Shown here in pieces: positions 4,258 through 23,407 of a DNA stretch of 23,504 nt. The notes under the pieces were generated by a model. It made no database searches, had not been told where the DNA came from, and saw only the letters and a list, made by a program, of their open reading frames with translations. The stretch is from a virus. A program made the position numbers and the translations under genes. The stretch spans positions 1 to 23,504 of the IMG/VR virus record IMGVR_UViG_3300017786_000149. The stretch is one strand, 5' to 3'. How positions within the stretch are numbered: position 1 is the stretch's first letter; every line of letters starts with the position of its first letter.

Positions 4258-5394
4258 TTATACCTCGTATCTTATAATAACAACGCCTGATCCACCTGCA
4301 GCAGCTGCACCAGCGTTCCATGCTGATGAACCACCTCCACCACCGCCAGTGTTTGCTGTTCCAGCAGTCATACCAGTATTTGATGTAGTATATCCACCAC
4401 CAGTTCCACCACCACCAGAGCCACCAGCAGCGTTATAACCAGTTGTGTATGTACCGCCTCCTCCGCCGCCGCCTCTTGCAGTAGAAGTTCCATCTATTAT
4501 CGAAGTTACACCATTTCCACCAGCGCCACCTGCTGCATTTGTATGATCAGTACCTGTGGCATTTGCACCCACACCACCAGCGCCTCCGCCTCCTCCACCG
4601 GCATGTGTATTTGTGCCTGGCACTGTGCCTCCGCCATATCCTTGTCCAGCGGTTCCAGATGAAGGCCCTAATACACTACTTCCAGCTCCATTTCCACCAC
4701 CAGATCCTCCGTTTGCACCCTGTCTATTTGTATTCCATGATCCTCCTCCACCGCCACCGATAGAGGTAATGCTATTAAACACTGAATCATTACCATTTGT
4801 GCCTCTAGCGGAACCACCATTATTACCGCCTGGACTTCCAGCACCACCTGCTCCAACGGTAACTGTATATGCACCAGGAATTACTCCAATAGCACTTTCA
4901 GCAACTCCTCCTCCACCAGATGATGAACCGGTGACATTGCTTCTGTATCCACCTGCACCTCCACCAGCAGAGTGCTGAGCACCTCCTCCTCCACCACCAG
5001 CGATGACAAGATACTCAACATCCAATGTTCCATCACCGCTTACAGTAAATGTTCCTGATGATGTAAAGGTATGAACACTATAGAGTTTACCATTTATTGT
5101 AGCAGTAGTTTGGGTTCCACCTAATGCACTAGCACTTCTTCTTTTTGCAATTCTTTTGTATGTATCAGCTGTCCACGTTTTTAATTCTTCATTTGTAGTA
5201 TCATAAAGAATAGTACCACCAGCAGCACTATCTAAGGATAATGCAGCAACTTCTGCAGAATCTAATCTAGGCACTTTTATTCCGGAATTAGATACACCTG
5301 TTAAGGATAAAACAGTGGCAGAATCTACTCCACCACCGCCACCAGTACCAAGTGAGGATCCTAAATTTGTAGCAATGTCGCGTGAACGGCTCAT
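4258..5394 (-). CDS. Polyglycine-rich tail fibre/adhesin protein A
   Basis: 378 residues. The N-terminal 60 residues hold the module GGGGGVDSATVLSLTGV and two DSA turns. Residues 60-85 read ILYDTTNEELKTWTADTYKRI, typical of phage fibre proteins. From 105 comes a beta-rich lead-in (HTFTSSGTFTVSGDGTLDVEYLVIAGGGG). Residues 133-370 are a glycine-rich domain with many GGGGGG runs, ending GVVIIRYEV. Such domains form polyglycine II sheets in receptor-binding phage proteins such as Salmonella phage S16 gp38, with specificity in the loops between glycine runs; applying this here is inference. The opposite strand carries long proline-rich frames that are only complements of the glycine codons. It is preceded by another cassette gene eight bases upstream and followed by a small gene two bases downstream. 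Confidence 0.85.
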   Translation of the reverse strand: MSRSRDIATNLGSSLGTGGGGGVDSATVLSLTGVSNSGIKVPRLDSAEVAALSLDSAAGGTILYDTTNEELKTWTADTYKRIAKRRSASALGGTQTTATINGKLYSVHTFTSSGTFTVSGDGTLDVEYLVIAGGGGGGAQHSAGGGAGGYRSNVTGSSSGGGGVAESAIGVIPGAYTVTVGAGGAGSPGGNNGGSARGTNGNDSVFNSITSIGGGGGGSWNTNRQGANGGSGGGNGAGSSVLGPSSGTAGQGYGGGTVPGTNTHAGGGGGGAGGVGANATGTDHTNAAGGAGGNGVTSIIDGTSTARGGGGGGGTYTTGYNAAGGSGGGGTGGGYTTSNTGMTAGTANTGGGGGGSSAWNAGAAAAGGSGVVIIRYEV

Positions 5395-6248: not shown

Positions 6249-7601
6249 TTATCCAGCCAATTTATATCTAATCATTAATACGCCTTGTGTGGCTAGCTGA
6301 GAAGTATTTCCGCCGCTGCCATCTCCACCCATTCCATATCCAGCTGAATCATGTCCTGTACCAGGACTACCACCAGTACCATTCACAACCACGCCACCAG
6401 AACCACCAGCACTATAGTAGGTTAATGTGCCAGTAAAGTTATCTTGTATGCCTGCTCCACCGTTACCGCCTACACGATATGCGCCGTTGGTACCTGCACC
6501 TCCAGCTCCTCCTCCGCCTCCTCCAGCGGCATTAGTATCTGATGATCCATCATCACCGCCAGTATTACCTTGTCCTGCAGTTGCACCGTATGGATTGCTA
6601 GAGGTGTTATTACCACCACCATTACCGCCAGATGAACCACCAGCTCCGCCTCTAGCTTCAGTATAAGGACTTGTTCCTGTACGTATACCTCCTCCGCCAC
6701 CGCCATCAGCAGTGAGATTTACTCCACCACCAGTCAATGTAGTATCACCACCAGACCAACGGCTAGAATAATCGCCTCCAGTTGCACTATTAACAGGCGC
6801 GCTTCTACTACCGCCAGCGCCAATCGTATATGTATATGTTCCTGCTGTTAATGCTGTAGATCCTTTCAAGAATCCACCGGCGCCACCTCCGCCACCTCCA
6901 TTGCTGCCACCATCACCTCCACCACCGATGATGATATACTCTGCACTATCGATATCTTGAGTTACAGTAAATGAACTACTACTATCAAATAAATGATAAC
7001 GCCATGTTTCAGTTCCATTTACAGTAATGGTTTCACTTAAAGCTTCTGTACCTTCCGCAATAAATCTAAATGCAAGTGCCGCAGTAGTAGTCGTACTAAT
7101 TACATGAGTACCATCAGTCGCGGTTGCTCTAAATTGAAAAATGCCCGCGCGGGTGACATTTGTACTTGGTTTAATAGTAAATCTACCGTTATCACTATCA
7201 ATAATAGTAAAACTACTATCTAATTGCTGAGGCGCAGACGGAGATAATTCATAATTATATTCTATAGGAAATCCTTCTTTATCAGCCGCGGCAGCAACTT
7301 CAATAACTTGTTGAGATCCATCTAATACTAAGCCAGTTGACGCAGCTAATGGGGTGTCCCAAGTTAGCGTCTCATTAGGGCCAGAATAAACTCTATCCCA
7401 TTCAGAACCATCCCAGTTAAATAATGCCTTTTTATCTAGCGTAAATGCAAGATCACCCGCAGTATTTCCTGATGTTGGAAGTGCTGCAGCGTTTGCATAT
7501 GATGTTGCTCCACCGCCACCTGATGCATTGTCAAGACTAGTAGACTTCACATCGCCAGTATTGGTAATCAGATTTGCGAGTAATCGAGTTTTACTAGCCA
7601 T
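6249..7601 (-). CDS. Polyglycine-rich tail fibre/adhesin protein B with Ig/cadherin-like domain
   Basis: 450 residues. The N-terminus MASKTRLLANLITNTG is shared in style with the gene at 8877-9170. Residues 47-75 (GDLAFTLDKKALFNWDGSEW) are a common fibre segment. Residues 105-180 (FPIEYNYELSPSAPQQL, FTIIDSDNGRFTI, AGIFQFRATATDG) read as an Ig- or cadherin-like beta-sandwich. Residues 200-225 repeat the lead-in seen in protein A (FTVTQDIDSAEYIIIGG), and 226-440 are glycine-rich, ending GVLMIRYKL. The ATG overlaps the TAA of the upstream gene (TAATG). A and B share their C-terminal design but differ in N-terminal domains, so they are probably two receptor-binding components. The role is inferred. 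Confidence 0.85.
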   Translation of the reverse strand: MASKTRLLANLITNTGDVKSTSLDNASGGGGATSYANAAALPTSGNTAGDLAFTLDKKALFNWDGSEWDRVYSGPNETLTWDTPLAASTGLVLDGSQQVIEVAAAADKEGFPIEYNYELSPSAPQQLDSSFTIIDSDNGRFTIKPSTNVTRAGIFQFRATATDGTHVISTTTTAALAFRFIAEGTEALSETITVNGTETWRYHLFDSSSSFTVTQDIDSAEYIIIGGGGDGGSNGGGGGGAGGFLKGSTALTAGTYTYTIGAGGSRSAPVNSATGGDYSSRWSGGDTTLTGGGVNLTADGGGGGGIRTGTSPYTEARGGAGGSSGGNGGGNNTSSNPYGATAGQGNTGGDDGSSDTNAAGGGGGGAGGAGTNGAYRVGGNGGAGIQDNFTGTLTYYSAGGSGGVVVNGTGGSPGTGHDSAGYGMGGDGSGGNTSQLATQGVLMIRYKLAG

Positions 7602-19419: not shown

Positions 19420-19998
19420 CTATAGGGCAGCTATCCTCGTTTGAAAATCAGAAAAATCAGCAGATGCTGCTACGACACTTTTTAAAGAAGATAAGCTAAT
19501 ATAGCTAGCATCAGATGAATCTAATCTTTCATTATTGATATTTCTCATATCGTATAAAAGTGCAATGTCTGAATCATTATTTGATACATTGGTTAATAAC
19601 GCACCAATCTGACTAGTATGCGTTGCTGATGTAGTTGTAAGCGTGCCAATATTTCCAGTATTATTACTTATATTGCTTGTATTAGTACTGACATTTGTTT
19701 GAAGAGTTGATATATTGCCTGTATTAGTGGCCACATCAGTAAGTAAAGTGGCAATGTTATTTGTGTTCAAGGCTTGTTGTGCTTCTAAAGGACCAACTCT
19801 TCCATTGAGTGCAGCAACGTCAGAATCAAATCCTGAATCTAGTGCGTTTACAATCGCAGTATAATAAGTTAAATCAGAGTCTATATTACTAATATTATTA
19901 GCATTTTGTGAAGCTCTGAGATTTAGATCTTGAAAGTTTCCGTCGAGCTCAGCAAATGAGAGCTCGCTTCCTTTGGTGCTTCTTAACGTAATGGTCAT
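19420..19998 (-). CDS. Fibritin-like coiled-coil fibre protein between gp15 and gp16
   Basis: 192 residues. The N-terminus MTITLRSTKGSELSFAELDG followed by NFQDL is a module found at the start of many marine phage fibre proteins. Residues 30-140 are a predicted trimeric coiled coil with Ile, Leu and Val at heptad positions, including tandem 14-residue repeats (78-140). Residues 141-192 are helical or mixed. There is no catalytic motif. T4 has no gene here; the interval between genes 15 and 18 is known to be variable in marine T4-like phages. It may be a whisker or neck fibre like T4 fibritin, or a tail-side fibre. It overlaps the gp15 stop as TAATG and is directly followed by gp16. Confidence 0.78.
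   Translation of the reverse strand: MTITLRSTKGSELSFAELDGNFQDLNLRASQNANNISNIDSDLTYYTAIVNALDSGFDSDVAALNGRVGPLEAQQALNTNNIATLLTDVATNTGNISTLQTNVSTNTSNISNNTGNIGTLTTTSATHTSQIGALLTNVSNNDSDIALLYDMRNINNERLDSSDASYISLSSLKSVVAASADFSDFQTRIAAL
19579..19767 (-). repeat. Tandem 14-residue (double heptad) coding repeats
   Basis: Residues 78-140 of the fibre gene at 19420-19998 consist of four 14-residue units and one half unit: NTNNIATLLTDVAT, NTGNISTLQTNVST, the half NTSNISN, NTGNIGTLTTTSAT, HTSQIGALLTNVSN. The pattern N-T-x-N-I-x-T-L places Ile and Leu as coiled-coil core residues. Copy number changes here would lengthen or shorten the fibre. Confidence 0.85.
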
Positions 19999-20783
19999 TA
20001 TTCTACTCCAGTAATAGTAGTACTAAATCCAAAATCACTATCAGGCATTCCAAAAATGCTTGTAGGATTAGGTTCTACAGTAACAGCTTCTAAAAATGCA
20101 TCCGAATCAGTACCTAGTCTATCCATATCGAATAGATTTGCAGTAGTAGTCCGGACAATATCTTGAGTTCCTATTGGACCATAGAAGCTTACTTTCATTT
20201 GAAAAGCTATTGTGTATATGATAGTTCTTCTAGTTTCATATGATCCTTCATAATCATCAGTAAAAGTTACTGACTGAATTATAACAGGAATATCTTCTTT
20301 GAAATCAGGATACTCTTCTAAGAATGGTAATATTGTAATTGTATATTGAGGATTAAACGTAGGAAGAATTTGCTCTACAATTTGTAATGCATCATCTTGA
20401 TTTTTAGCAAATATATTTAATGAAAAATCGATAGTATATGGAACAGGAGAATAAAATTTTTGCCTAGAAGAATTACTTCCGGCAATTGCTTTAAAATTGC
20501 TCACCTTTGTCAATTGACGAGTAGTATCATAATCAATTGCGGTAATTTCAAATGACATTCGAGGAAGCTTTAACGCTACCTTTTGATCACCTGGCAACTC
20601 TGCATTTTCACGCACTCTTTCTAAATACTTCATTTTCGGAGCATACGCAAGAGGAACTTTCAACTGGTTGAGAATACCACCGGCCGAATTCTTACGAACT
20701 ACGTAAATATTATTAAATAGCCTGCCAAAAAGAGAAACAGACTTACGTATTTTTTCGTGATAAAAATATTGTCCAAACATCAT
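19998..20783 (-). CDS. gp15: Tail sheath stabiliser / completion protein gp15
   Basis: 261 residues (T4 272). gp15 forms the hexameric ring that caps the tail and joins it to the gp13/gp14 neck. The N-terminus MMFGQYFYHEKIRKSVSLFG followed by RLFNNIYVVR is the family signature, then KVPLAYAPKMKYLERVR (42-58), LPRMSFEITAIDYD (73-86), FSLNIFAKNQDDALQIVEQI followed by LPTFNPQY, and a beta-rich end. The last 35 residues are Asp-Ser-rich and variable. The ATG overlaps the stop of the lectin-domain gene as ATGA; a second Met follows directly. Confidence 0.95.
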   Translation of the reverse strand: MMFGQYFYHEKIRKSVSLFGRLFNNIYVVRKNSAGGILNQLKVPLAYAPKMKYLERVRENAELPGDQKVALKLPRMSFEITAIDYDTTRQLTKVSNFKAIAGSNSSRQKFYSPVPYTIDFSLNIFAKNQDDALQIVEQILPTFNPQYTITILPFLEEYPDFKEDIPVIIQSVTFTDDYEGSYETRRTIIYTIAFQMKVSFYGPIGTQDIVRTTTANLFDMDRLGTDSDAFLEAVTVEPNPTSIFGMPDSDFGFSTTITGVE

Positions 20784-22048
20784 TGATCCTCTGGATCACC
20801 AAACGGATTATTTTCAGTAAAATCTAAGAAATCATCAATATAAGATTTAGTAAATTCATTATTTTGTTCTGTGTTAGACATTTTGTTGTCTTCTCCAACA
20901 CCAATAGCTTTCAAACCTGTAGTAGCTCTCTGGCCATTTCTATATGTTCTATTAAATACAGTAATATTTTCTTCAAATGTTCTCAATACACCATCACTAG
21001 ATCCTACATGAGCTAGATATAAGTATCTATCTGAATCTCCAGCCGAATCAAGCTTATATCTTGCTACTTCTCCAGTCATTAGTTGGCCACTACTTAAAGT
21101 TTGACCTACACTATCTCCAATTTGATAATCACTGTCATTGACTCGGTTATCGATGATTGCTACACGAGGTATTCTTGTATAGCCACACCCAGAATCTGAT
21201 ACGTGTATACTTGTGATTGCACCGGTGCCACCTAAAGCAGCAGAATCGATTGCAGCTACTCCCTTTGCTCTACGATAATCAAAACGCTGGTGAATCATAG
21301 GAGTAGTATTAAAATAATAATCATCTACAGAATCTGGTACGCGAGTGCATTGCGCAGAATCAAAAATTCCATTATCTAAAGTAGTGAATGTAAAATTATC
21401 TATTTTTCCAGGAAATCCAAAATTAAACACTGGCGTAGGAACAGCATCTGATGTATAGCCAGTTGGTCCTACGCTATCAGCATCATTTCCTAACCTAAAT
21501 TTAGTGCCACTATCTAAAAATCCTCCAGGAGCAGAAGTTCCGTCATTTCCTCTAAATGTAAAGAAAGAAGCATCACTATCAACACCAACTGAAATATTGC
21601 TATCAGTCACAACTACATGTAAAAAATTCCATTGCCCAGGAGTAATAGCACGATCAGTATTCCAGTGATTTAACGTATTTCCAATACCTCCTAATGTCTT
21701 ATAAGCTGAATCAACATTATACACAACACCAAATTGGCCTGAACCATCTGACATTAGCTTTACTTTAGGTGTCCATGCTAAAGTGCATTTTCTACTAGAA
21801 TCTGCATAATACCAAAATGAGATCTCACTTGATGCTAAGCTTCCATTTCTATCGGAAGTTATATCGCTATCAATTAAACTCATAATAGTATTACTGTCAT
21901 GATATAAAGATGCGCACCCAAACTTTGCAGAATCAGAAAATCCATACAAATTAGCACTATCATAATATGGAAATTCTACAATAACAGTTGGTGCTACTGT
22001 GAAATAATTTCCACTATCTACTATAACTAATTGATTAACTTTGCCCAT
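20780..22048 (-). CDS. LamG/ConA-like lectin-domain protein with gp14-like C-terminal tail
   Basis: 422 residues. Residues 1-26 (VNQLVIVDSGNYFTVAPTVI) and 277-300 (ITSIHVSDSGCGYTRIPRVA) are two copies of the beta module SG-x-x-Y-x-x-x-P-x-V. Between them, residues 35-240 read as a LamG/concanavalin A-like jelly roll: AKFGCASLYHD, SEISFWYYAD (74-83), TPGQWNFLHVVVTDS (136-150), and GKIDNFTFTTLDNGIFDSAQ. After the second module come GEVARYKLD, YLYLAHVGSSDG and an end SYIDDFLDFTENNPFGDP that resembles the C-terminal tail of T4 gp14. It may be the detached second part of gp14 (see findings). It contains 19 Asp-Ser dipeptides. The ATG overlaps the gp14 stop as TAATG. A neck-attached carbohydrate-binding protein is inferred. 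Confidence 0.78.
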   Translation of the reverse strand: MGKVNQLVIVDSGNYFTVAPTVIVEFPYYDSANLYGFSDSAKFGCASLYHDSNTIMSLIDSDITSDRNGSLASSEISFWYYADSSRKCTLAWTPKVKLMSDGSGQFGVVYNVDSAYKTLGGIGNTLNHWNTDRAITPGQWNFLHVVVTDSNISVGVDSDASFFTFRGNDGTSAPGGFLDSGTKFRLGNDADSVGPTGYTSDAVPTPVFNFGFPGKIDNFTFTTLDNGIFDSAQCTRVPDSVDDYYFNTTPMIHQRFDYRRAKGVAAIDSAALGGTGAITSIHVSDSGCGYTRIPRVAIIDNRVNDSDYQIGDSVGQTLSSGQLMTGEVARYKLDSAGDSDRYLYLAHVGSSDGVLRTFEENITVFNRTYRNGQRATTGLKAIGVGEDNKMSNTEQNNEFTKSYIDDFLDFTENNPFGDPEDQ

Positions 22049-22650
22049 TATGGTCCCAACACTGCTCTAGCTTTAGGTTTCTTAGGACCAAGTAGCTGAA
22101 CAACATACTGATATGCATAATCTCTTTCAACCTGATCAATATTTTCAACGCCAGTATCAAAGTCTTCGCCTGTGTATTCGAATAGAGTACATCGCATTTT
22201 ATAAACCGGCACATTTTGAACTTGATAAAAAGGTTGTTCATGCTCTACGTGATTTATTTGAAACATTGATTGTGTGAGAGGTAGATAGATTAAATCACCT
22301 TCTCCTGGTCTTAATATTTCAATTCCTGAATTTTGAAATCTTTTAATTTGATTTTTCCAACGTGTTCTTGATACAATAAATGTGCATTCATCTCTAATTT
22401 CAACACCAAATCTTGTAAAAAGATCTCCTTCACCATCAAATCCTTCTACGTTTTCAATATACATCTCAATTTTTTGAGCAGAGTTAAAGTTCGATGTTGG
22501 ATCATCTCCCAACAAAAAATCTTCGTTCATTAAATCACGAGGTATGTAATAAACGTCTTGCCCATAGATCTTTAACGCCTCTATGACTAAATCTTCATAC
22601 AGGTTGATCTCTGATTGAACTTTTTCTGAAAAGTAGAAATTACGAGCCAT
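22048..22650 (-). CDS. gp14: Neck protein gp14 (N-terminal part or short form)
   Basis: 200 residues; T4 gp14 has 256. gp14 with gp13 forms the neck that closes the filled head and joins it to the tail. Family matches: EALKIYGQDVYYIPRDLMNE followed by DFLLGDD (26-50), a middle FTRFGVEIRDECTFIVSRTR (78-97), and LRPGEGDLIYLPLTQSMFQI then NHVEHEQPFYQV (114-145). The frame then runs FEYTGEDFDTGVENIDQVER and stops after ARAVLGP. The C-terminal segment known from T4 is not here but appears at the end of the next gene. GTAGGAT lies before the ATG, three bases after the gp13 stop. Confidence 0.92.
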   Translation of the reverse strand: MARNFYFSEKVQSEINLYEDLVIEALKIYGQDVYYIPRDLMNEDFLLGDDPTSNFNSAQKIEMYIENVEGFDGEGDLFTRFGVEIRDECTFIVSRTRWKNQIKRFQNSGIEILRPGEGDLIYLPLTQSMFQINHVEHEQPFYQVQNVPVYKMRCTLFEYTGEDFDTGVENIDQVERDYAYQYVVQLLGPKKPKARAVLGP

Positions 22651-22651
22651 A

Positions 22652-23407
22652 TTATCCTACCATGAAATCTGGTGGTAATTCGAACTCGTCTCTAATTCTC
22701 TCTCTTAACGCTTGAATTTCTTGAGTTGCATCATCATATAATTGTCTACCATTAAATGTCACGCCCCCAGGCATCACGATGCCTTCAAATTTAATTAAAT
22801 TTTGTCCCCACTGTTGTTTGATAAGTGCAGTGGTGTATTCTTTTAGCCACATATCATTATAGATTGACGTATACGTGTCTGGATCTAAAGCGCTATAAAC
22901 TTCTGCTACTACATATTCACCTACAATAATATCATCGTCATGAAAGTCTCCAAAAATATGCAGCCTATCCTGGTGTCTAGAAAAATTAACCTGAGGTGCT
23001 CCATTTAATTTCATATCTAGCATAGACAAATATTGTTGCATTTGATCATAATACGCCAAATCACCTGCAAAATTTTGCAAGTCTGCAATATCGTTCAACA
23101 TCATTTGATATTTTATATCAAAAAAATTAAATGAGGTATTAAAAGAACTTGCAATAGGAAACAATTTTGAAACATACAAAATGTCAGACGAAATCGGAAT
23201 ATATTCGTTAGCTTTATCGGCCGCAGTAACCTGATGTTTTAGATAAGTGCGTACAGTCGCATCAGTGTGATACTCTTGATAATACTGAATAGCTTCATCG
23301 ACGCGATCTTCAATTTGATCTTCATCAACATTAATTTCTAATACTGGATCACCGAGTCGTCTTTTACAATACTCAATCAGTGTATCTCTGGAATTAGGTG
23401 GTGCCAT
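22652..23407 (-). CDS. gp13: Neck protein gp13
   Basis: 251 residues (T4 309). gp13 binds the portal after packaging and starts the neck. Recognisable parts: SRDTLIEYCKRRLGDPVLEI followed by NVDEDQIEDRVDEAIQYYQE (6-45), YIPISSDILYVSKLFPI (69-85), FNFFDIKYQMMLNDIADLQN (93-112), DRLHIFGDF, and the helical block MWLKEYTTALIKQQWGQNLI followed by KFEGIVMPGGVTFNG. It is the first complete gene from the right edge. GGAGA lies before the ATG, and a TATAAATA late promoter lies 31 bases upstream of the start, so it heads the neck/packaging transcription unit. Confidence 0.95.
   Translation of the reverse strand: MAPPNSRDTLIEYCKRRLGDPVLEINVDEDQIEDRVDEAIQYYQEYHTDATVRTYLKHQVTAADKANEYIPISSDILYVSKLFPIASSFNTSFNFFDIKYQMMLNDIADLQNFAGDLAYYDQMQQYLSMLDMKLNGAPQVNFSRHQDRLHIFGDFHDDDIIVGEYVVAEVYSALDPDTYTSIYNDMWLKEYTTALIKQQWGQNLIKFEGIVMPGGVTFNGRQLYDDATQEIQALRERIRDEFELPPDFMVG

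Follow-up and report, generated by a model that had tools for sequence, protein, structure and literature searches.

A TAATG-split gp14 neck gene recurs among uncultured T4-like phages and is very probably translated by stop-restart

The neck protein gp14 (head closure Hc2) of T4-like phages is one ancestral protein, which is encoded by two genes in the phage studied here. The window, meaning the whole stretch of 23,504 nucleotides that was analysed, is a 23.5-kb record of a marine T4-like phage (IMG/VR IMGVR_UViG_3300017786_000149). Its gp14 is broken at a restart-type junction, the same break is present in many relatives, and both halves are under selection. As judged from the sequences, the split is scattered over many separate branches of uncultured relatives; this recurrence is beyond what the reading of a single sequence could see. 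Very probably, gp14 is made in these phages as two co-expressed chains by stop-restart, and the two chains would jointly be equal to one gp14.

The main genes of the window are on the minus strand (Table 1). The genes of gp13 and gp15 flank the gp14 pair; a hexamer place between gp13 and gp15 is a trait of the Hc2 family, and gp13 and gp15 are the predicted partners of the gp14 core and the gp14 arm, respectively. Hc2 proteins are single polypeptides, whereas the window has two ORFs in different frames. The preliminary description had read the core ORF as ending KPKARAVLGP-stop, with the next ORF entered in the −1 frame via TAATG, and the sequence confirms both points.

Table 1. Features of the window and junction sequences of the split gp14 genes
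Feature	Position	Strand	Remarks
gp13 head-tail adaptor	22652..23407	-	phrog_211 E 4e-43
gp14 core chain (head closure Hc2, N-terminal part)	22048..22650	-	200 aa
GGGA, weak Shine-Dalgarno-like string	22054..22057	-	5 bases upstream of ATG, inside the gp14 end
TAATG stop-start overlap	22046..22050	-	one base common to both ORFs
gp14 arm chain	20780..22048	-	422 aa, start MGKVNQLVIVDSGNYF, −1 frame relative to gp14 core
Arm chain layout			half beta-module, putative laminin-G-like domain, second beta-module, arm core, NPFGDP tail
Conserved gp14 C-terminal tail IDDFLDFTENNPFGDPEDQ	20783..20839	-	end of second chain
gp15 tail sheath stabiliser	19998..20783	-	phrog_227 E 7.5e-73; Pfam T4-gp15_tss E 2.6e-65
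Gene after gp15	19420-19998	-	segments of NTGNISTLQTNVSTNTSN type recur; weakly similar to families of tail needle and neck whisker proteins
Two glycine-rich fibre-like proteins	4258-5394 and 6249-7601	-	long GGGG runs
Candidate junction elements			GGGA, GCGAGTATT
Junction type A			GCGAGTATTWCRTAATG; 41 junctions
Junction type B			GTGGARCTNGNNTAATG; 14 junctions
Junction type C			GTGTTGGGACCATAATG; window
Other junctions			L274 GCGGTACTTGGATAATG; variants in L412, L413 and L451

Both window ORFs are covered by phrog_460, the head closure Hc2 profile of 385 positions. The core chain matches positions 15-200 (E 2e-71) and the arm chain matches positions 230-377 (E 2e-10). The core chain also matches Pfam T4_neck-protein (PF11649) with an E-value of 4e-34, and its residues 17-167 align in sequence to residues 42-184 of T4 gp14 (E 2.3e-26). 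The same profile matches all 18 aligned second chains; DDFLDF and NPFGD are invariant in these 18, and the fused proteins end in the same tail. Furthermore, gp14 is one CDS in all eight phage records checked, those of T4 and of seven marine or related phages (S-SSM7, MED4-213, C48C1, P-SSM2, Mosig, HTVC008M and Melnitz-3), from which, together with the search matches, the single-chain state among isolates was judged. The gp14 of S-SSM7, 763 aa in length, includes a region related to the second chains. Since one profile spans both ORFs and dozens of relatives are broken alike, the arrangement is more than chance. The earlier proposal that gp14 is one ancestral protein split here is supported by the profile over both genes, as well as by fused relatives and the conserved tail that the second gene carries. 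With regard to that tail, the NPFGDP end does sit on the second gene as proposed; however, T4 gp14 (256 aa) ends SFESSPFDNDFMD and not NPFDDF, and its end SPFDNDFMD is a looser version of the NPFGDP tail. When the second gene of the window was used as tblastn query, it gave no match in isolates, but some of its relatives do match. Similarity-based annotation can miss the second half of gp14.

In T4 gp14, the beta core consists of residues 55-88 and 113-177, and residues 178-256 show disorder when the neck complex is isolated and make contact with gp15 once in the virion (PMC12270204). In the window, the chain is split at residue 200, some 30-40 residues past the core, so that the head-sealing part is parted from the tail-binding arm. 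To place the break, we used a fused relative, L022. The split first chains align to its strand TATVTM, and the second chains start beside the following strand; the break falls at a turn predicted for residues 198-201, which links strands 192-197 and 202-209 and where the local confidence of the L022 model is about 77-86 (whole-model mean 58). Only 2-3 residues are unmatched at this turn, inside the beta-module. The break is thus predicted to lie in a beta-turn just past the head-sealing barrel. The beta-module repeat noticed in the preliminary description was recovered, with LVIVDSGNYFTVAPTVIV appearing again in the second gene, at residue 281, as IHVSDSGCGYTRIPRVAI.

A Foldseek search with the second chain of the window returned an agrin complex chain (E 1.5e-7, probability 1.00), on a model with a mean pLDDT of 58; the fold matches of this low-confidence model are agrin, laminin and neurexin LG domains. 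Pfam laminin-G matches were found in 6 of 18 relatives, with E-values up to 0.01 (best 3e-4), and in the window there was none. The arm chain of the window may carry a laminin-G-like domain, a low-confidence assignment drawn from the model; in split phages, the second chain may often have a lectin-like domain. Relatives with a separate, unrelated lectin gene at this place had been named as a finding that would speak against a split gp14. Instead, the second gene appears to have the laminin-G-like domain inserted ahead of a true gp14 arm. Asp-Ser dipeptides are enriched in the second chain of the window (19 vs 4.2 expected; 0 in the core) and in the split second chains overall (326 vs 86 expected). 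As the Asp-Ser codons vary, the enrichment looks like a feature of the protein level.

That the second gene is initiated independently, and that its product is a separate protein no longer part of gp14, is improbable in our judgement. Each half of T4 gp14 has a discrete function, barrel core and gp15-binding region (PMC12270204), and the arm chains vary widely in size, from 267 to over 1400 residues, as would suit separate proteins. However, the break is inside the beta-module, at the predicted turn, and the arm core and NPFG tail remain on the second chain. This holds for the five type-B loci checked as well, in all of which the arm and NPFG tail lie inside a longer protein. In the type-B split phages (L240-L255, L405-L410), the second chain is about 500 to 1400 residues long and runs on beyond the NPFG tail; L408, L409 and L405 have further genes, starting MA.xRPKL, between the second chain and gp15.

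Relatives, whose contigs are fragments from metagenomes, were collected from protein searches, and copies identical over 400 bases were removed. This gave 33 split and 136 fused distinct gp14 relatives; 28 further splits were added by motif search, second-gene search and the window-type pattern, bringing the total to 61. The preliminary description had suggested aligning the gp14 of relatives over the junction. When this was done, dozens of diverged relatives proved to break at the same place with TAATG, namely all 61 splits. Among the 136 fused gp14 proteins, 94 have 287-309 aa and lack the module region; the other 42 have 371-562 aa. The longer fused genes that were compared carry the module, and the compared split copies have the module region as well. 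One short fused gp14 (L233) and one split gp14 (L412) have similar cores and tails, and differ by an inserted module region containing the junction.

On the gp14 core tree, which has many unresolved forks and some long branches, the split state requires 13 changes, at least 8 of which are forced by well-supported branches. A single split clade, and with it a single origin of the split, was rejected on this tree with a p-AU of 6.3e-77, the tested group being named from the trait. The arm-core tree has few columns and did not settle the question of origin. Fusion is the probable ancestral state, given that T4 and the other named phages show it; repeated gain or loss, or exchange, may lie behind the scattered splits. 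Split and fused neighbours were also compared directly, and no close pair was found (best about 80-84% identity over all three genes), so the edges of a cassette could not be mapped in DNA.

The stop/start codon overlap typical of termination-reinitiation pairs is present in the window as TAATG. The gp14-gp15 boundary is TAATG too, in 73 of 94 fused relatives. The duplex of the window GGGA with the 16S tail has an energy of -3.9 kcal/mol, which 16% of background windows do as well. The weakness of this string, and of that in type A, counts against the restart reading. The split junctions use at least four sequences (Table 1), and the variants include ATC in L413 and GTGAGTATATTA in L412. The second chain invariably has G, A, S or T as residue 2; a small residue at this position is what one expects where the initiator Met is cleaved off. 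No common hairpin was evident when seven junctions were folded as single sequences.

These junctions bear on programmed −1 frameshifting, which would produce a single gp14 of about 620 residues and make the TAATG incidental. We consider it very unlikely. As described previously, the −1 frame of the window has exactly six open codons ahead of the ATG and contains no canonical slippery heptamer; there is no in-frame run of four in the overlap either. Type A junctions have 7-17 open codons in the −1 frame, and the −1 peptide EY[YF][IV]M is as conserved as the frame-0 peptide. Dual coding in type A could thus explain the invariant bases. However, a slippery heptamer was found in none of 43 junctions, and the ATG lies exactly at TAATG in every split, which a frameshift would not need. 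The small residue 2 and the diversity of junction sequences also speak against it. In 12 of the 14 type-B junctions the −1 frame offers a single open codon ahead of the ATG, so that a frameshift has hardly any room. Taken together, the junction diversity, the early −1 stop of type B, the small residue 2 and the TAATG layout favour termination-reinitiation.

The exact junction string of the window is present in five IMG/VR contigs of separate assemblies, as two variants. Between them, 23 of 600 gp14 bases differ, and so do 49 of 1266 bases of the second gene, mostly silently in the latter. Between the window type and a relative, L084, dN/dS is about 0.06 for the core and about 0.07 for the arm chain (dN 0.011, dS 0.151 for the latter). 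Although one relative (L182) does look like a gp14 frame broken without TAATG, likely by assembly error or as a decayed copy, a sequencing or assembly error splitting an intact gp14 is rejected for the window, owing to the independent contigs, the mostly silent variation, the purifying selection on both halves and the many other lineages broken at the same place. Among the three mechanisms offered in the preliminary description, stop-restart is thus the one favoured; frameshifting is unlikely and sequencing error is ruled out.

Termination-reinitiation is known to depend on overlaps of this kind; genes with short overlaps are translated in a coupled manner, and subunits of complexes are enriched among their products (PMC10666635). 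In the stop-restart reading, the first gene would supply the beta-barrel core, the part bound to gp13 that plugs the neck. The ribosome would terminate at TAATG and restart at the overlapping ATG, yielding the second chain, which would complete the interrupted beta-module and add the laminin-G-like domain and the C-terminal arm, the gp15-binding part in T4. Assembly of the two chains, probably while they are still being translated, would then give a functional counterpart of a single gp14. The efficiency of the restart, the assembly of the chains and the role of the laminin-G-like domain are what we infer here.

Most split phages keep GCGAGTATTWCRTAATG nearly invariant. In 23 aligned lineages, just 3 of the 90 conserved codon columns show no codon variation; they are the final three, read GCG AGT ATT and include two minority codons. 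This test is partly circular, since many of the lineages were selected by the motif. Among 12 lineages whose retrieval did not rely on the motif, a single codon fills 7 of 71 conserved columns, and these include GCG AGT ATT in a row. Shine-Dalgarno strength is insufficient as the whole reason for the invariance: the type A string reaches -3.1 kcal/mol, as do 19% of background windows, the pairing of GAG with the 16S tail is weak, and the T positions of the motif are left unaccounted for. From the sequences, the motif may be dual coding, a restart element or a recombination point. It occurs in 66 IMG/VR contigs, about nine of them not at gp14, and has 59 matches in a bacterial and archaeal genome collection. 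A bolder proposal, which we hold as speculative and rather doubtful, is that the motif is a dedicated restart element and exchange point, at which a mobile cassette of stop-start, beta-module and lectin-like domains plugs into gp14. If true, the cassette would change the outer decoration of the neck and leave the head-sealing core untouched.

gp14 belongs to the core virion genes of T4-like phages, and the named phages checked have it as one gene. Its repeated split in uncultured marine relatives would show that two chains can make up a structural protein of the neck, and that domains are added and changed at this site. The fused and split relatives provide a natural series for asking whether restart-coupled chains co-assemble.

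Compared with T4-like gp14 (phrog_460 Hc2; PF11649), the window has a homologous core and C-terminal arm in the same order gp13-gp14-gp15. Different from T4 and the other records checked, which have one gp14 chain, it has two, with an inserted beta-module and putative laminin-G-like region. The S-SSM7 gp14 resembles the window in its region related to the second chains, but is a single uninterrupted chain. Split genes are known in T4-like phages, namely nrdA of Aeh1, topoisomerase gene 60 of T4 and gene 43 of 44RR and phage 25, and two of these three split proteins were shown to reassemble (PMC2988022). Like gp14 here, each is an ancestral single protein made as two chains. However, those are enzymes whose genes are interrupted by homing endonuclease genes or by an insert that is not translated, whereas gp14 is a structural protein of the virion, with a one-base stop-start overlap and no endonuclease gene between the halves. 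Known termination-reinitiation pairs have TAATG or ATGA overlaps, often with a Shine-Dalgarno sequence in the upstream gene, and are enriched for subunits of complexes (PMC10666635, PMC6728339). The gp14 pair has the one-base stop-start overlap in common with them; unlike them, it derives from one protein, broken inside a beta-module.
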